Origin: Polytrichum commune
Taxonomy: Eukaryota; Streptophyta; Polytrichopsida; Polytrichales; Polytrichaceae
Assembly: GCA_950295325.1 (NCBI GenBank)
Contig: OX485805.1
Coordinates: 16,107,501 to 16,171,500, forward strand
Length of the DNA stretch: 64,000 bases
Reading direction: 5' to 3'
The position numbers and the translations under genes were made by a program. A model generated the notes under the pieces. The model ran no database searches and had not been told where the DNA came from. It saw only the letters and a program-made list of their open reading frames with translations. Shown here in pieces: positions 6,141 through 16,215 of the stretch. How positions within the stretch are numbered: position 1 is the stretch's first letter; every line of letters begins with the position of its first letter.

Positions 6141-7099
6141 GGCTCGTTTACAGTAGCGATCACAAACCATGACCACTACATTCTGAATTTCTCTCATTGG
6201 TTGAGAAACGAGTGGCGATCACACTTTGTTTTACAAAAATCGCCATAAATTAGGGTGTCCATTCATGATATATACAAGATAGTGACATTGAATCTTACAT
6301 GTCCAAAAATGGATAATGTTATGTGGTCACCCATATTTTGTGATGAGAACACCCAAATGACTTGTCTTATATAGAATATGAAGATAGCCATGTTGTACAA
6401 TTATTTTTAATATCTATCATCAAATATTATTTATATTTGAACATATTTTTAGTGATCTTTCTTTCTTATTTTCATTAAAAAGATTACATCTTGGTTTTAA
6501 CGTTGCTTTACACTATATCTTGTGGCAAAGGCTTTTAAAAAATGATTTAGGTTTTCTCATGATCATGTCTCTTGACCATCAACCATGACCACGAGAATTC
6601 TTTCATCATTTAGTCTCATGGTCCCTATGAACAAACACTCGACTCATACAACAAAGGCTTTTTATTCACTCAATCTAAGGACCAAAGATTTATAAGACCA
6701 CCCATAAACACACCCATTACAAACAAACCTAAGATACAAAGCCCAAGGTGACAAATCACATGTATCTAACCAAATTGGCCACTACTAACTACCATACCAT
6801 CATCCATAACATAATGGATATGGGAAATATTTGCACATACCTCACCGCACCCCATGATCAAGTTCCTACAATTGCTACCCCAAGAATTTGCAACCGAAAT
6901 ATTGCGGCTCACCCATCGATATATCACAATCTTCCCCCGGAAAAAATGCAAAAGACATAATCCACACAACAACCATTACACATTATACTGAACAACACTA
7001 ACAAGCTCACATTCATGCCGGTACCTTGCTACAAGCATTACTTTTTTCTTTTCTTTCTACCGAACAACACTAAAAACCCTAATTAAATCCTTACAAATC
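6141..7099. other. Intergenic DNA downstream of the LINE
   Basis: No gene seen. A stretch at 6141-6260 and another near 6550-6640 have Harbinger-like motifs (CATGACCACGAGAA, also near 20145). From about 6690 to 7090 the plus strand turns A/C-rich and carries a 70-codon frame with no recognised domain. It may be the 3' tail of the neighbouring LINE or an unrelated insertion. Confidence 0.35.
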
Positions 7100-7762
7100 A
7101 CAAACCCATTGGATTGCAGCCTAATATGGGTTGGGTGGCAATGTGGTGGAAGGGGGTGATCGAGATATATGGTTCTTGTGCTCCTTGTTTGGCTAGCTTG
7201 TTTACCTCATCACATCCAAGTAAATTTGGTTATGCTATGACTTTTTGGGTAGTGGTATTGTGGGTGGAAAGTTATTGACTTTATAATGTGGGCTATGAGA
7301 AGCTTGCCGGGATGGTTATATTGGGAGGAGGGATGTCTAATGTGGTTTGGGAGTGGATATATACTATTGAGGTTGTCCATGAACATGATTGTGTCCATTG
7401 TGATTATTTTGGTGTATTCAATTACTAATAGTAGTGTGCATAATATGGCTTTTAGGATGTTTGCGTATTCAGGGAGTTTAGCAATATCTTTTTAATGTAG
7501 TTGCCAATTTCTTGTTTGCATAGGGTGTGAATGAGCCATCCATGTAATATGATTGGGCTGGCGGGTAGAGTATGGGGAGGATATTTACGGGAAGAGGGGG
7601 TACTATTGGGTGGGGGCGCAATGGAGTGCCATTTTTGTTTTTGAGATTTTGGTTGTGTGTGTGGGGGGGGCGGGGGGGTCGTGCTTACAGTAAGCATTGT
7701 GGGTGGTAGTGATTTTAGAAATATAGGTATGTGGTGTTGGTGTGGTGTGTGTGATATGAGTA
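7100..7762 (-). pseudogene. LINE RNase H domain remnant
   Basis: Minus-strand translation gives fragments typical of LINE RNase H. NYIKKILLNSLN lies near 7520-7470. HPSSQYNHPGKLLIAHII lies near 7330-7270. DEVNKLAKQGAQEP, near 7190-7150, matches the end of the fold where ...ADKLAKQGA is usual. The frame shifts between these pieces. The pogo insertion at 7763 separates this part from the post-RT region. Confidence 0.7.
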
Positions 7763-9229
7763 CACCCTAACCTTGATAATATCACACTTGTTAATAGAAC
7801 ACCTTGATATTGTCACCTAAAAGTTTGAAACCGATTTCCATAGTGTAAAACTCCCTCGTTATTATCACTATCACCCTTGATAATGTCACATTTTTTTTTC
7901 AAAATTTGTAGTGTAAGTGTGATAATAACAAGTGACATGGATGAAAAAAGGCCGGATGGACAACAAATTCTATGGATGACGTCGGCATCTTCACCTGCTT
8001 CCGCTTGAATCTTGGGTTCTTGAATCTTGAATCTCATGTGCCGAAGAAGCAACGGTTTCTCTCGCATATCAACTTCTCGCAGCTCCGCCTACATCGTATG
8101 CTCTCTCCTCTCGCCGCTCCACACACCGCAGATTTGCATTATTATGGATAATGCAGGAAGCTATGATATTCATGGTGAGGTCAAGAAAGTTATAGATGGG
8201 TTTAATGCTTTTGTACTCTCCCATGTCACCATCTTGTTCCTTCCACCAAATGTGACTTCAGTTGTTCAGCCTTTGGATCAAGGAGTGATTGCAGCATTCA
8301 AAATGTGCTATAAGCGCAAGCTTGTTGCCTGGACTTTGCAACAAATTGATAACAACTCAAATGAAGATTTGGGGAAATTGAATGTTGATGTATTTCAAGC
8401 TATGCTATGGTGTGTGGCGGCATGGCATGAATTAGATGATCAAACCATTAGAAATTGTTGGAGAAAGTCCGCCATATTGCCTGCAGAGTGGAATGCAGAT
8501 ATAAACAATCTTGATGAACGTATGAAGTCCAAAATGGAGGAAGCAACTTTGGAATTGGGTAGACTCATCGCCGCATTAAATTTGGGTTTGGATGTTGAAG
8601 GCAAGCCTGTAGAAATGCTTTGTCCTTTGGAGTACATAAACATGGAAGGTGAAGATGATTTTGAGGTGGAATTTTCTACTGAGGAGCTTGTGCAATTAGT
8701 GCAAGATGGCGAACAAGATCTTGATTCCATGGAAGTGGACCCATTGATTGTTGATAGCAGTGATGATGAGTCTAAAGTAGTGAAGCTAAGCGATGCACAA
8801 AAATATGCTAAAGATGTTTTGAATTTTATGGCTAGCCAAGGTTCTCAGATTTTCAGCACTCATGAGTTGTTAGAAATGGAAAAAATCCATGACAAACTCA
8901 TTAGAATTGGTGTTGCACATTTAACATCAACAAAACAATGTAACATTAGAAGCTTCTTTGTCTCTAGTGAGAGGTCTTTACCTGATCTCAATGACACATT
9001 ATGATGTGCTCTTGTTGTTATTCACAATTTTGTATTAGATTTTACATTCAAAAACATTGAAGTCTCGTATTTGTTATTTTAAAAAAATTGTAATTATATT
9101 TTGATTTTCTACATATATTTTGATAACATCACATTATGCACAAAATGTGACATTATCAAGTATGTCACACCTTGTTTATATCACATTTTTTGGTGAAACG
9201 GAGGGTGTGACATTATCAAGGTTAGGGTG
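7763..9229 (+). mobile_element. Pogo/Tigger-type DNA transposon, internally deleted
   Basis: A 1,467-bp element with TA on both sides (7761-7762 and 9230-9231) and terminal inverted repeats of about 25 bp (CACCCTAACCTTGATAATRT; the right end is the complement with one mismatch). The motif CTTGATAATGTCAC recurs just inside both ends (near 7875 and 9140), as expected for subterminal transposase sites. The interior keeps the C-terminal half of a DDE_1 transposase but has lost the N-terminal DNA-binding part, so it needs transposase from elsewhere. It lies inside the minus-strand LINE. Confidence 0.9.
8027..9004 (+). pseudogene. Pogo/Tigger transposase, C-terminal part (DDE_1)
   Basis: Open frame of 325 codons. 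From about residue 38 it reads as the second half of a DDE_1 transposase. IIMDNAGS carries the second catalytic Asp (residue 41), and LPPNVTSVVQPLDQG carries the third (residue 84), with the usual spacing of about 42. The C-terminal 150 residues are acidic, as in plant Tigger-like proteins. The first catalytic Asp and the CENP-B-type helix-turn-helix are missing. Residues 1-37 look like former 5' leader read through after the deletion, so the annotated ATG is probably not a natural start. The conserved part has no stop, so the copy is fairly recent or under weak constraint. It cannot be a complete transposase. Confidence 0.85.
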
Positions 9230-11285
9230 TAGTGTGGAAGTGAAGGATGGTTATTTAGTGTAGCATAGTTTGGGGAGGGTTGGTGATGTGTTGTATTGAT
9301 TTGGGAGGGGAGCTATTGTGAGGATGGGGGTTATGTCTAATTGTTGGAGGTGTTAAGTGTGTAATGAGACCAATCATCATGTGTGATGGTAATTATAGTG
9401 TTGGAAATTGGACTCATTTAAGCTGCTAAATGGGCCCATGTTATGACTTTGTGGATGGTGATTAGGTCAATTATGTGGGCGAGTCCATGTCCTTGCCATT
9501 GGTGGAGAAGGTTTGTCCTAGTGAGCCAAGGACTTGGTCTCTAGTGTGTGGGGAGTGGTGTTGAGTAAATTGTGTGGGGCAAGTGAGTGGGCTAAAGAAG
9601 TACGAGTGCATGAGGTGGAAGTTTTGATAAGGATGGTTAGTAACTTTGGAGGGAGAGCATGATGGTTGTGGGTGAGATGGATATAGGTTGGGTTTCAGAG
9701 AGGTAGTGGTTTTTTGTATTTGTTGATCAATAAGAAAACCTTCATTGCAAAGTCATGTGGGGGTGGGGACATGCTTTGCATGTGTGTGTTGATGTGGTTT
9801 GTATATATTTCCCAAAACCACATGAGTCATTCTAGCGGGATGGTTGATTAGAGGTGGCCTTTATTGTGACGAATTTGGGCAAGGGAAGGATGGATTTGAA
9901 TCATGGGGCATTAGTGCTAAGTATTTTTTTTATCTAAGTTGCACTTTTGGGTTTGTACAAAAAGGTGGGGTATAAATAGGTTTGGGTGAATGTAGTGTCT
10001 ATCTTTGGACTATGTCATTATTATGATGTTTAGGAGTTTTTGTCTCATGCATTGGTATTTGAATTGAGCTAATTTGGTATCTGGACTAGGCTAATTTGGT
10101 GATGAGTAGAGAATTGTGGTGATATATTAGTTGATTTGGGTTTAGGAGTGGTGTTCAAGATTTTCATTTTGTATACATGTTGTTGGAGGAGTGCCAATGT
10201 CATTTGAATGCATGTGTGCATTTTTACGCTCCCCGAATAATTTCCTTAAGGATGGCTTAAAGATGGAGATATGTGTGATAGGGACACTAAACCGTATAGT
10301 GGAGGTTGTATGCCTTGGAGAGGGGTCTAAGGGTGGAGGTGGGTTGATACATCTGGGGTTGAGAGCGGGTTGTAGTGAGTTATTGGTAGGCAAGTGGTTG
10401 TGGTTTGGAGTACAACTATCTTTTATTATTTTGGGATTGGTGTGGTATTTTTGTTGAAATTCTAGGAGTATATGGATATAGGTCTTTGTGGGGTCTTGTA
10501 GTTGGGGTAGTATAGTGACATTAAATGTGGCTAATTTTTTGAGGGATTTTGTTGTGATGGCTTTTTGGTCGGAGCGAAAGATGGTGAAGAATGGGCTTCT
10601 GTACCAATCATCATGGAGTGGTGAGTTATTGTTGGGGAATGTGGTGTTCCTTGAGTCAATGTGGATGTTGGATTTCTTTTTCCAATACGTATAGGAATCG
10701 AGTTGTTGGTAACCTTGAGCATGCTTGGTAGTTTAGCAATTGTAGATATTCAGTGCCACCATATTTTGGTGACTATGAAATTTTACTAGTCCTTGGTATA
10801 TTTTCCCTACTAGACATGGGTCATTGAGTTTCTATGTAAGTTTCCTTAGTGCGTTGGCATATATTGGGAGGAGGGAGAATGCTTCAATGCCAAATGTTTC
10901 CTTTGGGAGCTAGGTGAAGGTATTTGGGGCACTTTGGGAAGTTTATGAATAGTTCTAGTGAGTTTGATGAGAAGTTTGTCCATTCTTCAAATATCTTGTA
11001 CGGAGAAAGGGACACCATAGAGAGCATATGCTATATTGGGCATATGAATGTGTTCAATATTTTGATTTTTTGTTGTTATGGTGAGGCCGGTGATAAGAGC
11101 AGGGCATTGCTTTGTTTTTATTTTTCTATAATGATTTCTTTTTGGATGGACCATTTGAGAGATGGGACTAGTTTACTGCCTAGACATGTATAAGGTTCGG
11201 TTCCTGATAGGGTTGGGTAGTTGCTCGTTTCATAGTTGATGTTTTGGGATTGAGGTGAGGTGTGAAGGCTAGAGGTTGTAGTTTT
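9230..11285 (-). pseudogene. LINE post-RT region remnant
   Basis: Minus-strand pieces match the segment between RT and RNase H of this LINE type. NIAYALYGVPFSV lies near 11050-11010. KETFGIEAFSLLPIYANALR lies near 10910-10850. KIYQGLVKFHSHQNM lies near 10790-10750. Several frames are needed to follow the domain. It abuts the hAT-type insertion at 11294 (through its duplicated target) and the pogo element at 9229. Confidence 0.65.
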
Positions 11286-11293
11286 GATTTATT

Positions 11294-12697
11294 CATAGGG
11301 AGTGGACTCTTCCTTGAAAACTTAAATGACATGTGTGGGTTGCTATGAATTTGAACCCCCTACATATGAGAAGTTTCTAAAGAAAAAAAAATGTACACAT
11401 ACTAATGACATCCTAGGAAATGGACTCATGTATTTGCACTAATTGTTTCATTGTAATGTAATAAATGCCTCCACCACATATACAAAAAAAACATTTAATT
11501 TTAAGAAAACCTTTTTTACATATGAAATCCATTCTTTCTTTCCAATGAGAAAGTCATTGAACTTTTTATTTATTTATTTCATCTATAGCATGCAATTCAA
11601 TAATTGCACCAAGCAAACAAAGACAAGAGTACAATAACTTAGCCACATTCTAGAGAGCAAAACTAAAGGGAGCCCCTGAGCGCTCCAAGAGCCTCAAGCT
11701 TGTAAAAATCAAGACCCTAAATGCAAACCCCAACAAGAATGGACAATGTAGTCATTCATGACTATTACCATATGACAACAACGGATGATTAGGTGAATTG
11801 GATGAAACTAAGACATCTATTGTCAATTTACCTCTAAACCCAAGGCCCCTTTTGTACATCTACCTTTACATCAAAATTCTCAATAATCCTTTTAAGTGTA
11901 CACACTAGAGAAAATTAATACCTCTTCGTTATGTATACTACAATAGGTTGATAGCATGTAGGGCAAAAAATAATTTGAAAATATAAAACCTAGTTTTTTT
12001 GGAATCATTGGGCCAATTAGCCTAAATGAATAGAAAGGTAATCATCAAAATATCTAAATGTAAGGAAATGTGTTGAGTTGGAACAACACAGTTCAAAGTC
12101 AATACCTCACATGCACTAACGACACAACTTGTCAAATGCATACACTGTGGCTTTCACATGAAGTCTAATTGGCATTTACATGGAATCTACTTGGCATTCA
12201 CATGTTAGGTAGTCAACCTCTCGAATTCAAAAATGTAAAACGAGGTATGAAACATATGACTAATTTTCTTCTCCCTCTTAGCCATATTTTCAAATTTTCA
12301 AATAACTTTTACCAAACATGAGCACAAAATAATAATAAGATTATTTTTCATAACACTAATTAGCAGTCTAAGACGGCTTAACCTAAACCCTAAAGGTTAG
12401 TATCGAGTACTTAGCCATCATGAATGAATGAAAAATAAGTTATAATACTTGTAAGTATATGTAGGATATGTTATGTGTCTATATCTATATATATAGATAT
12501 ATAGATATATCCACATATTTGCCTAATTTTTCATAAATGTTTTTATAGACCGCCTAAGCCTTTTTTGCAATCAATTAATTAATGGGCATTTTTTGTCCAA
12601 CTTGCTTTCAATTTACGTATGTATGCTAATGCCTCAAACAATACATGTCTTTCACTCGCATTAGTTCATGCATGTTATGAGGAGTCCACCCCTCAAG
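11294..12697. mobile_element. hAT-type non-autonomous element F1
   Basis: A 1,404-bp element bounded by a perfect 8-bp duplication GATTTATT (11286-11293 and 12698-12705). Its ends are imperfect inverted repeats (CATAGGGAGTGGACTC at the left; complement of CTTGAGGGGTGGACTC at the right). An 8-bp duplication with such termini points to hAT. Deleting the element and one duplication joins the LINE reading frame exactly (CSNKS to KLQPLA). No transposase is visible. A relative lies at 54006-56919, and each copy has a middle section the other lacks. A TATAGA-rich palindromic low-complexity patch lies at about 12480-12512. Confidence 0.85.
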
Positions 12698-13090
12698 GAT
12701 TTATTGGAGCATCTTGTTACAAGGCATTTTTTTACGCCTAGGTTCATGTATGCCCAATCTAAGAATTGTATGAGTTTGTATAGTTGGATGTGTTGGATGT
12801 AATATGTGAGTATAGCAAGATCATTTGTGTAGGTTGTGGTCATTATTGTATTGGTTGACATATCATAGTTGGCCCTATTAAAAAATTTCCAACCATATTA
12901 ATAGTGCTTTTAAAAATATAATGAAAACCTATGGGATGAGGGTGTATCCTTGGATAGTGCCTGGGCTAATTTTGTATGGGTGGGGTTGTTGTGAACTGGA
13001 TGCCTCTGAAAGAGGTAGAGAAATACGAACATATGTTTTTCACTAGGGTGACGTTGTCTACAGGGTAGCCTAGGACTTCCATGATGGCTA

Positions 13091-13465
13091 CACTAAATAG
13101 TGTATTTAGCATCACCAATTATATTTGTCTTGCCCAATACTAATTGTGAATTGCATGTGTAGTGTCACCAACACTAAATGTAAACCTAGCATTATTTGTC
13201 ATTCTTGTCAAACAAAAAAAACCAAAAAAAAATTGGGAGTTAGAGATTTATAGTTGCAATTGTTGTCACTTACTACAAAATTTTCCATCCAAATTTCAAA
13301 TATTCATGGCAATATTTCATTACATAAATGTTAGGATGCAAAATTTACCAAAAGTGGATGAACTAAATGTAAGTTGAGATGACAATATTTGTATACTAGT
13401 GTCATTAGAAAAGTAATAACAATGACATAAAATACCATTTGGAACCAAATACAAATACATTAGTG
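13091..13465 (-). mobile_element. Mariner-like MITE, family A, copy inside the LINE
   Basis: A 375-bp element with TA on both sides (13089-13090 and 13466-13467) and CACTA/TAGTG ends. In reverse complement its interior matches 30066-30435 and 39015-39385. It sits between the RT palm motif and the next RT block of the LINE, so it inserted after the LINE. Confidence 0.8.
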
Positions 13466-13674
13466 TAGAAGCCTAGTTGGTCGATTAGCCAAATGCATTT
13501 GTAAAGTCTGTGTAAGTGAGGTATATGTCTCTATTTGTGAAATTTGTGTCTTCTAGGGTAGCTGCAATGGTTTGGATTTGGTAAGCAATATTTTGTTTTT
13601 AATGGGGCGGAAGCCCTCTTGGATGTGGTGTAGGATTTTGTGTTGTTTGCCAAAGGTGGTGAGTAGGGAGGTTA

Positions 13675-14170
13675 GGGCCACTTCACACATGAGCCAAGAG
13701 CCATGACCATGATATTGTGAGAGCCCAAAAGAAAGTGTCCAAAGGGCATCCCAAGACACCTCCAAAATCATGTAGTGTGGTCACAGACGTCAATGGTAGT
13801 GTGAAGTCATATGTGACTAGGCCCTCAACCAAATGCTATTTCAATGAAATTCTATTCATGTAGGTCCTCGCACATGATAACATAGAATATATCATTGTTT
13901 GTGAGCGTTTGGAGTGCCATGGTCTCCCATTTTGTGTTAGGCCTACCTCCAAGAGGTGGGTTTTGAAAATAGTCCAAGTGACCATGAAACATGACCATTT
14001 GCCACTATGTAGGAATCCATGTAGACTTTACATCCATCTTGCATTCACTTACTTTGTTGGTCCCTAAAGCGTAGTGTGAAGCGAACTTGGACCAACTCCG
14101 CCTTTTCCATTGATGAGAGTGCTTGAAGTGTAATGGTCACAAGCTCTCAGTCTCATTTGTGAATTTGCCC
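13675..14170. mobile_element. Harbinger-type MITE, family H1, inside the LINE
   Basis: A 496-bp element with TTA duplicated on both sides (13672-13674 and 14171-14173). Its termini are GGGCCACTTCACACATGAG and CTCATTTGTGAATTTGCCC, imperfect inverted repeats. TTA plus GGSC-type ends is the PIF/Harbinger signature. It splits the LINE RT between NYRPI and the next conserved block. A full-length relative of the same length lies inverted at 18126-18621. Confidence 0.9.
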
Positions 14171-14742
14171 TTAGTGTAATTGTGAATTTTTTTAGATGGT
14201 ACATGCAAACACTATGGGTCTATAGTTAGTGACAATGATAGGGTGGTCTTTCATATGTAGTAGTATGGTGATGCTATGTTTCCATTCCTTAGGTATGGAT
14301 TCTTGGTGGTAGCATTGGAGGAAGACTAGAGACATCAAGTTGTGGAAGTTGTTGGATGGGGCGTTGAGGATATCATTAGGAATTTTGTTTGAGCAAGGGG
14401 TCTTCCTTTTTGAGAGATTTTTCAGGCATTTGACATATGTGATTTTTGTGAACATTGAAGTGAGGGGAGGTGTGAGAAGGTTCTTTTTTTATAGGGTGAA
14501 CCTTCTTTGATTTGTCAAGGGTATTGTCTAACTACAAACATGCATTCATAAGGGTGGTATGTAGGGTGTGAATATATTGGTGCTTGCCTTTTGAAGGATT
14601 TCAATTGTGAGGAGTGTATGTTGTTGGCTACGACATTAGATGCGTAGCTATAGTACAGTCTTTGTCTATCACGCAATCTAACGGTAGGTTGTCTCATGGG
14701 TTGAATATTCTTTTGTGGATTTTCTTTGGTTTTCGTCTAATG

Positions 14743-14743
<1 letters not shown>

Positions 14744-14782
<39 letters not shown>
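14744..14782. repeat. (TG)n microsatellite
   Basis: An uninterrupted TG run of about 39 bp inside the endonuclease-to-RT linker of the LINE. It is probably a later slippage product. Confidence 0.95.
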
Positions 14783-14784
<2 letters not shown>

Positions 14785-15546
14785 CTTTTTTGGGTATTTT
14801 TTGGGTATTTGGAGGTTTCACATCAAGCATCTCTAACAAAACATGTGTTGGTGTCTAGCCATTTTTGTATTTCTTGAGGGTTATTGGTGTGTGAGGGGGT
14901 GCGTGGGGAATTTTATAGTTTTTGGATACATTGTTGAAGGTGCCAACTTGGTGAAGTTGAGAATGTGGTATCTTTTATAGTTTGTTTGATGTGGTGGTAG
15001 GTGGTAGGTGGCAAGATGTTTTTCCAAGTTAATTGTGCCTTGCAAGGGAGGAAACCTCCTTGCCTTTTTACGTTGTGGGGTGAGGATTATGGGGTGAGGG
15101 TTAAGGGTTGGGAGGTTGTGCATGTTTGAATGGCACATTCGCTAATGGATTGTATGATGATGTTGATTTGGTCTTGTGCTTCTAACTATTTGTATGAGGG
15201 GAATGATGTGGGGTTTTGTAGTAAATGGGTAAGTTGGAGGATATTGATGAGGTTAATTCGTTGAATTTGGTGAGGAAGGAGTGTTCACTTTCTTCCGGTG
15301 GGAGGTATGTGTATTGGGTGGGATTGGTTTGAATTGTAGGGGACTGTCTCTAGGAATTAGAAACTAAGAGTAGAGTATTGTGCTTGGCAACTGGTGAGGA
15401 CGATCTCTTGGTTGAAGTCTATGATGAGAAGTGCGGAGAAATGTTGGGTACATGTTGATTGTGAGTTGAGTAAGGGGGAGGGGTGCAAGTTTGAGACAAA
15501 CACTCTTCTCTCTACACCCACTTCTCATAGAATATGAATCATGCAA

Positions 15547-16215
15547 TCAATGTGAGATGATCAACAAATGCAGATGGTGCAAGTAGCCACTTTCCTCATG
15601 GTTTCGGAGTTCATTTGTATAAACTATAAGTTGTCTTAGTGAAGATTTTATGAGTTAGTCAATGATCATATAGCCCCCCCCCCCAACAAAAAAAAAACAA
15701 CAAATAAATGATGTTGGTTATAGCATCTAGAATGGTCATTAAATGTTGAACACATAGTCTAATCTCGCTTCAACACATGTCACTATGGTGCCCGTTCTTA
15801 AATATAGGTTCCCGTTCAAGACCATTCATCAAACTAGGCACATTGACCTTATGTAAGAAATTACAATGTAAAGAATAAAGCAAACCCTCTCAATTTCTCA
15901 TAAGATCCACATTAGTGTCTAGGAGATTTTTGGGCATAAGGTAAGTGTGCCTAAAATGGACACTTCCAACATTCCAACATATGTAGGGGTTCGACAATCC
16001 AAGAAAACTTACATGAACACATTAGCAAATCCAAATTAGGAAGATTATAAATGTTCTTGTTATTTTTTTTGAATGAAAGTGAATATCTTAAGAATTCTTC
16101 AAGTGGTGCTCAGAGTTTTTTTTAATTGGTTTTCTTTCAGATGTGTACATATCAAACTTGAATATGTACATGTATGCTAAAAATTATGTAAGATCACATA
16201 GCACTTTAGAACTAC
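15547..16215. other. Gene-free relic DNA
   Basis: No gene seen. The first 130 bp resemble the dispersed repeat near 1845-2030 and 19850-19990 (GTAGCCACTTTCCTCAT, TGGAGCTCA in the relatives). A C run followed by an A run is near 15675-15700. Confidence 0.4.

Follow-up and report, generated by a model that had tools for sequence, protein, structure and literature searches.

LINEs (long interspersed nuclear elements) insert by target-primed reverse transcription and DNA transposons by cut-and-paste, and the superfamilies of the latter leave target-site duplications (TSDs) of characteristic length, 8 bp for hAT elements and 3 bp, TTA or TAA, for PIF/Harbinger elements, whose terminal inverted repeats (TIRs) begin with GG or GGG; the duplication lengths at the locus described here agree with these rules. 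We analyzed a 64-kb window, the whole stretch of DNA studied here (contig C3:16107501-16171500 of the 408-Mb genome of Polytrichum commune, which comprises 64 contigs), and describe in it what is almost certainly a two-level nest: one old LINE cut into five pieces by four later DNA elements, one of which, a hAT-type miniature inverted-repeat transposable element (MITE), carries a fifth element within it. The interruption of older elements by younger ones, with relative age given by nesting, is an established form of analysis, as presented in the available part of PMC2517846, and the available part of PMC2213677 gives a 3-bp target duplication for PIF/Harbinger elements.

The LINE belongs to a family that is abundant in this genome. 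In a protein search with 84 residues of the reverse transcriptase (RT) remnant in the window, 150 scored places among 799 candidates matched, several of them in open frames of more than 2000 aa. Two such open relatives, L049 and L050, have second open reading frames (ORF2) of 2295 and 2568 aa, each preceded by a shorter ORF1-like frame. In L049 ORF2, Pfam finds Exo_endo_phos (206-368) and Exo_endo_phos_2 (324-453), RVT_1 (821-1089) and RNase_H (1819-1958), in that order, so that this full-length relative has the single ORF2 with an APE-type endonuclease followed by RT that defines APE-type LINEs; L050 ORF2 matches RVT_1 and RNase_H and has no endonuclease match in Pfam at E ≤ 0.1. Aligned to L049, the window holds a single minus-strand, 5'-truncated ORF2 whose five collinear pieces, adding up to about 4.6 kb, extend from 15473 to 7111:

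14174..15473, minus strand, LINE piece 1 (5'-most kept): C-terminal end of the endonuclease, linker and first part of the RT, L049 residues about 426-843 (tblastn, DNA, Pfam on L049)
13468..13674, minus strand, LINE piece 2: RT, L049 residues 849-909 (tblastn, DNA)
12706..13090, minus strand, LINE piece 3: end of the RT, L049 residues 917-1050 (tblastn, DNA)
9232..11293, minus strand, LINE piece 4: L049 residues 1062 to about 1740, lying between RT and RNase H and spanning the place of a PCIF1-like domain (tblastn, DNA, Pfam)
7111..7760, minus strand, LINE piece 5: RNase H region as far as about residue 1974, where the element has lost its 3' end (tblastn, DNA)

With L049 ORF2 as tblastn query, residues 466-843 match the minus strand at 15350-14189, 849-909 at 13675-13488, 917-1050 at 13091-12697, 1062-1755 at 11252-9179 and 1793-1974 at 7624-7126, leaving alignment gaps of 5, 7, 11 and 37 residues at the four joins, and L050 ORF2 yields the identical order of pieces. 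The match of residues 1062-1755 consists of two overlapping high-scoring segments in different frames, and its end overruns about 50 bases into the neighboring pogo element; because the nucleotide alignment passes straight through the overlap (window 9231-11293 to L049 7859-5803), the overlap within 9.2-11.25 kb is a frameshift and not a repetition. Collinearity with L049 covers residues 466-1974 by protein and begins at about residue 426 by DNA, where the matches end inside the endonuclease domain at 15473 (so in L048 and L049; 15466 in L046 and 15470 in L047). Counted from the 7111 side, DNA identity to L049 is 60, 58, 63, 64 and 58%, and to L050, for which four pieces were found, 56, 59, 61 and 55%; older relatives, at 57-74% identity, are mostly closer to the window pieces than L049 is, so that L050 is the farthest or is missing for every piece. 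Shuffled and reversed ORF2s gave two chance matches over the 64 kb (E 0.080 and 0.047), and both ORF2s and both ORF1s found no further match at E ≤ 1e-3 in the 64 kb other than one on the plus strand (6668-7108). The order of endonuclease-linker, RT, post-RT and RNase H remnants on the minus strand, in five pieces, which the original prediction had read from the letters of the window, was thereby confirmed, and its single LINE stands, with limits corrected by the DNA matches from 7100-15546 to 7111-15473. A (GT)n run occupies 14740-14783 within the linker region of the LINE.

Related LINEs are numerous (the 799 candidates at first look), and a second LINE fragment on the other strand adjoins the first at 6618-7110, so that LINE-on-LINE clustering does occur here. 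Even so, there is only a very slight chance that the five pieces stem from several neighboring LINE insertions that mimic one element: their order on one strand is strict, the joins fall within 5-37 residues, each gap corresponds exactly to one element with a duplication of its own, and related loci hold the corresponding sites in single copy. The two outcomes that would speak against a single LINE, best matches to different LINE families or one protein region covered twice, were looked for, and we found instead that one and the same ORF2 accounts for all five pieces, in order and with no region repeated. Among 27 related LINE loci (L010 and L040 overlap at one place), which served for the collinearity search and for the search for empty sites described below, all 21 with matches to at least three pieces keep this order, on a single strand. 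A single LINE, then, is separated by the following elements:

7763..9229, plus strand: internally deleted pogo-type element, 1467 bp; TSD TA at 7761-7762 and 9230-9231; 25-bp TIR CACCCTAACCTTGATAATATCACAC with one mismatch
8024..9001, plus strand: its remaining transposase frame, the C-terminal half of DDE_1 (profile positions 78-177 of 177; Pfam PF03184, E 8.7e-18)
11294..12697, unstranded: hAT-type MITE interval including a nested insert; TSD GATTTATT at 11286-11293 and 12698-12705; imperfect TIR CATAGGGAGTGGACTC / CTTGAGGGGTGGACTC
11941..12617, unstranded: fifth DNA element, 677 bp, nested in the hAT-type MITE; TSD TA at 11939-11940 and 12618-12619; TIR CAATAGGTTGATAGCATGT (CCATAGGTTGATAGC in the relative L075)
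13091..13465, unstranded: TA-flanked MITE, 375 bp; TSD TA at 13089-13090 and 13466-13467; imperfect TIR CACTAA...
13675..14170, unstranded: PIF/Harbinger-type MITE, 496 bp; TSD TTA at 13672-13674 and 14171-14173; TIR GGGCCACTTCACACATGAG

All four separators have TIRs, imperfect in two of them, and intact, exact TSDs, and each belongs to a dispersed family whose limits elsewhere are near or equal to those at this locus. For the empty-site test, 80 bases from either side of each insert were joined and searched against the 27 related loci; the small, constant gaps in the resulting rows arise because the joins cut a few bases off the final insert limits. Rows spanning the join without the insert were obtained from 20 loci at the Harbinger site, from 22 at the TA-MITE site (the L012 row being poor) and from 20 at the hAT site, 17 of the latter cleanly without a second copy of GATTTATT. 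At the pogo site, nine rows from eight loci span the join, those of L003 and L013 unambiguously; the row from L049, one of the two from L006 and probably that from L009 come from other parts of these loci. The four TSDs within LINE sequence and the empty sites in relatives bear out the prediction that the LINE came first and all four separators later.

The element at 7763-9229 combines a TA duplication, TIRs and a pogo-type DDE transposase, DDE_1 (PF03184) being of the pogo/jerky type. In this copy Pfam matches neither the beginning of the DDE_1 profile nor a DNA-binding domain; the copy is non-autonomous, only the second half of DDE_1 remaining. In the DNA searches of the genome, for each of which the best 40 places were scored, the family has 39 other scored copies at 95-99% identity; five are full-length, and of the 34 partial ones 30 match in a second part as well, as expected of longer copies. 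The pogo assignment and the TA duplication therefore stand, but the copy is no relic: three full-length copies elsewhere are 98-99% identical, and it has 15 private differences of 1471 positions (1%; its two siblings have 1 and 2), so this deletion derivative is recent.

The element at 13675-14170 was borne out as a Harbinger MITE, with TTA exact at both ends and a matching TIR that starts with GGG (as a pattern, GGGC[C/A]A[C/A]TTCACA[C/A]ATGAG), and has 39 other scored copies at 88-90%. Of its 41 differences from siblings, 20 are C>T or G>A and 3 are A>G or T>C, a bias as expected from methylation decay; the observed/expected CpG ratio is 0.30 over 7100-15546, depleted relative to the 0.42 of the whole window. 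For the TA-flanked MITE, with 39 other scored copies at 74-79%, the predicted TA duplication proved exact; it is also the one ground for the label 'mariner-like', which we regard as unproven.

A further correction concerns the hAT-type interval, which has an 8-bp duplication (GATTTATT twice) and short TIRs, as hAT elements do, and which had been taken for one element of 1.4 kb. Its relatives match query positions 15-673 and 1344-1436 (39 other scored copies, with 75-81% identity in the left part). In 31 of these 39 the left part stops at query 668-673, and query 1349, which is window 12618, is the exact start of 16 right-end rows. Because the 677 bases in between are flanked by TA, absent from the four relatives read at this place and present elsewhere, the supposed 1.4-kb hAT is a MITE of about 727 bp (11294-11940 plus 12618-12697) with a passenger. 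The hAT type and the 8-bp TSD thus hold, as do four separators with TSDs of their own, and the elements number five in all. Independent, near-full-length copies of the passenger lie at C2:19065080, C2:56473036 and C3:36826511, with 69-71% identity; in the two that were read, the flanking DNA has no alignment to the hAT-type element, and in L075 both ends carry TA. The empty site of the nested insert is readable in four (L068, L069, L070 and L072) of the seven hAT-type relatives aligned, L071, L073 and L074 not being used at this site. It could be argued that the middle is the hAT-type element's own internal sequence and the short relatives deletion derivatives, since the relative at C3:23228976 matches query 33-832 and 1149-1421 and so shares part of the middle, and since the middle has inverted repeats that are imperfect (83% over 24 nt) and set in from its ends. 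We consider this improbable, given that the middle has inverted ends and an exact TA duplication, that it occurs without hAT flanks at the two other places read and that most of the hAT-type relatives break at its limits. With the passenger recognized as a separate insertion, a composite that a repeat library might treat as a single 1.4-kb hAT is corrected.

Nesting alone orders the LINE before its four inserts and the hAT-type MITE before its passenger; the remaining order rests on divergence, measured from the majority of 18-19 relatives for the LINE stretches and of seven siblings each for the left part of the hAT-type MITE, the TA-MITE and the Harbinger-type MITE. The LINE diverges by 27.2% over 10400-11285, 30.9% over 12706-13088, 21.9% over 13468-13671 and 22.9% over 14174-14600, and the three MITEs by 12.8% (hAT, left part), 12.0% (TA-MITE) and 8.3% (Harbinger); for the nested element, compared with two relatives, 77 of 626 positions (12.3%) are private differences, and for the relatives themselves 56 and 76. 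Since closer siblings may exist beyond those sampled, and would reduce the figures, these values and the 1% of the pogo copy set maximum insertion ages; they are compatible with the nesting. Identity to the nearest sibling was rejected as a sole clock: the nested element reaches at best 71% at full length and its hAT host up to 81% over part, yet the nested element is the younger.

The LINE stops at 7110/7111, around residue 1974 of 2295 in L049 numbering; the earliest LINE-side match starts at query 551, which is window 7110, and none but the self match crosses this point. Beyond it lies a different LINE:

6618..7110, plus strand: fragment of a second LINE, joined tail to tail to the first (residues 1471-1626 by tblastn, E 8e-14)

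This fragment is 61% identical to L049 in DNA and has a weak 68-bp match to the stretch downstream of L049 ORF2, and may include a bit of 3' untranslated region. In DNA it does not match LINE piece 4, where the main LINE itself has the region of residues 1471-1626. We read the junction as two different LINEs tail to tail, the main one having presumably lost its 3' end. Twin priming was rejected as the origin of the inverted fragment, which lies at the 3' side and repeats, without a DNA match, a region that the main LINE already has. Another dispersed repeat, at 15937-16200, is 79-85% identical to 39 other scored places and reaches the end of the searched stretch.

The most likely course of events, with mechanisms taken from the superfamily rules, would begin with target-primed reverse transcription of a member of the abundant LINE family, 5'-truncated inside the endonuclease domain. 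Four non-autonomous cut-and-paste elements would then have entered four separate sites in it, each with its own target duplication: the hAT-type, TA-inserting and PIF/Harbinger-type MITEs and, last, the young, internally deleted pogo. The 677-bp fifth element, with its TA duplication, would have entered the hAT-type MITE, and the 3' end of the LINE would have been lost separately, by a deletion or rearrangement between the two tail-to-tail LINEs. We see no indication of a function beyond that of dead mobile DNA.

Several points weigh against this account or blur it. With the 3' end missing at 7110/7111, no poly-A tail and no target duplication of the LINE itself can be read, so its mode of insertion is not directly shown. 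The empty site of the pogo element rests on two clear relatives, and at the hAT site the rows of L005, L009 and L046 lack a clean single-copy site, L009 holding other sequence there. As for ages, several LINE relatives are themselves 22-37% from the majority, the sibling sets are small and were picked by similarity, and the nearest relatives may have been missed among the best 40 places per search; the hAT-type MITE, its passenger and the TA-MITE are too close in divergence to be ranked.

More interesting than the locus itself is a domain of the host LINE family. Among solved structures, its RT is nearest to R2 proteins (E 3e-30) and next to human LINE-1 ORF2 (E about 3e-15), and its RNase H to RNase H1 (E 6e-7); the endonuclease stretch of L049 has no match in the Protein Data Bank (PDB) at E ≤ 0.01, and L049 ORF1 none in Pfam at E ≤ 0.1. 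Upstream of the endonuclease region, both copies that were read, L049 and L050, have the 2A-like motif GD(V/I)KPNPGP. In L049 it is close to the end of the frame 1155-2732, which precedes ORF2 and is in another frame, and in L050 it is near residue 225 of ORF2; 2A-like sequences in LINEs are already known from elsewhere. Between RT and RNase H lies a further domain:

L050 ORF2 1813-1908 and L049 ORF2 1556-1641, corresponding to part of window 9232-11293: PCIF1_WW-family domain between RT and RNase H (Pfam PF12237)

PF12237 scores 41.6 bits in L050 ORF2, above the curated cut-off of 31.1, and 25.5 in L049, below it. In a profile search of the genome, all 150 scored places of 697 candidates exceeded the cut-off (best 55.6 bits), while none of 14 control genomes matched, which says little given that the named controls are prokaryotic. 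At least 32 of these best 150 places follow a listed RT match on its own strand, 2402-2592 bases downstream, as against at most 1 in 300 random placements and 0 on the wrong strand; 32 is a floor because the RT and PCIF1 lists each hold the best 150 places. Single-sequence searches of the PDB put PCIF1 chains on top, if weakly (E 0.035 and 0.087 in one, 0.019 and 0.057 in the other, followed by BlaR1 at 0.23), and a two-sequence profile of the PCIF1-like region found nothing in the PDB at E ≤ 1.

PCIF1 is the cap-adenosine methyltransferase of animals, and NPPF is its catalytic motif; in its place, L050 has HPHN and L049 FPTD, these being the two copies read. To judge from these residues, the replacement would lower the claim of activity and not that of descent. 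The LINE family probably has a PCIF1-family domain between RT and RNase H as a standing part, which may be catalytically dead and reused for RNA or cap binding in retrotransposition. We found no published report of a PCIF1 domain in retrotransposons by titles and abstract openings, which is no proof of absence. If both homology and use hold, an RNA-cap enzyme fold would join the domains captured by LINEs.

Compared with known systems, the locus is an ordinary transposon nest, though an unusually readable one, and nests of this kind order transposon families without a molecular clock. The interruption analysis of PMC2517846 treats, in its available part, mammalian genomes as a whole, whereas here it is one locus in which the duplications of all five inserts can be read. 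With pogo / Tc1-mariner transposons the plus-strand element shares the TA duplication, the 25-bp TIR and the C-terminal half of DDE_1, differing from them in its internal deletion. With hAT and PIF/Harbinger MITEs the two elements so assigned share the 8-bp and TTA duplications, short TIRs and many copies, the assignment being made from duplications and TIRs. The host family, finally, shares with APE-type LINEs the order Exo_endo_phos, RVT_1 and RNase_H seen in L049 ORF2, but its RT is closer to R2 than to L1 among solved structures even though its endonuclease is of the APE type, and, unlike them, it has a PCIF1-like domain between RT and RNase H.

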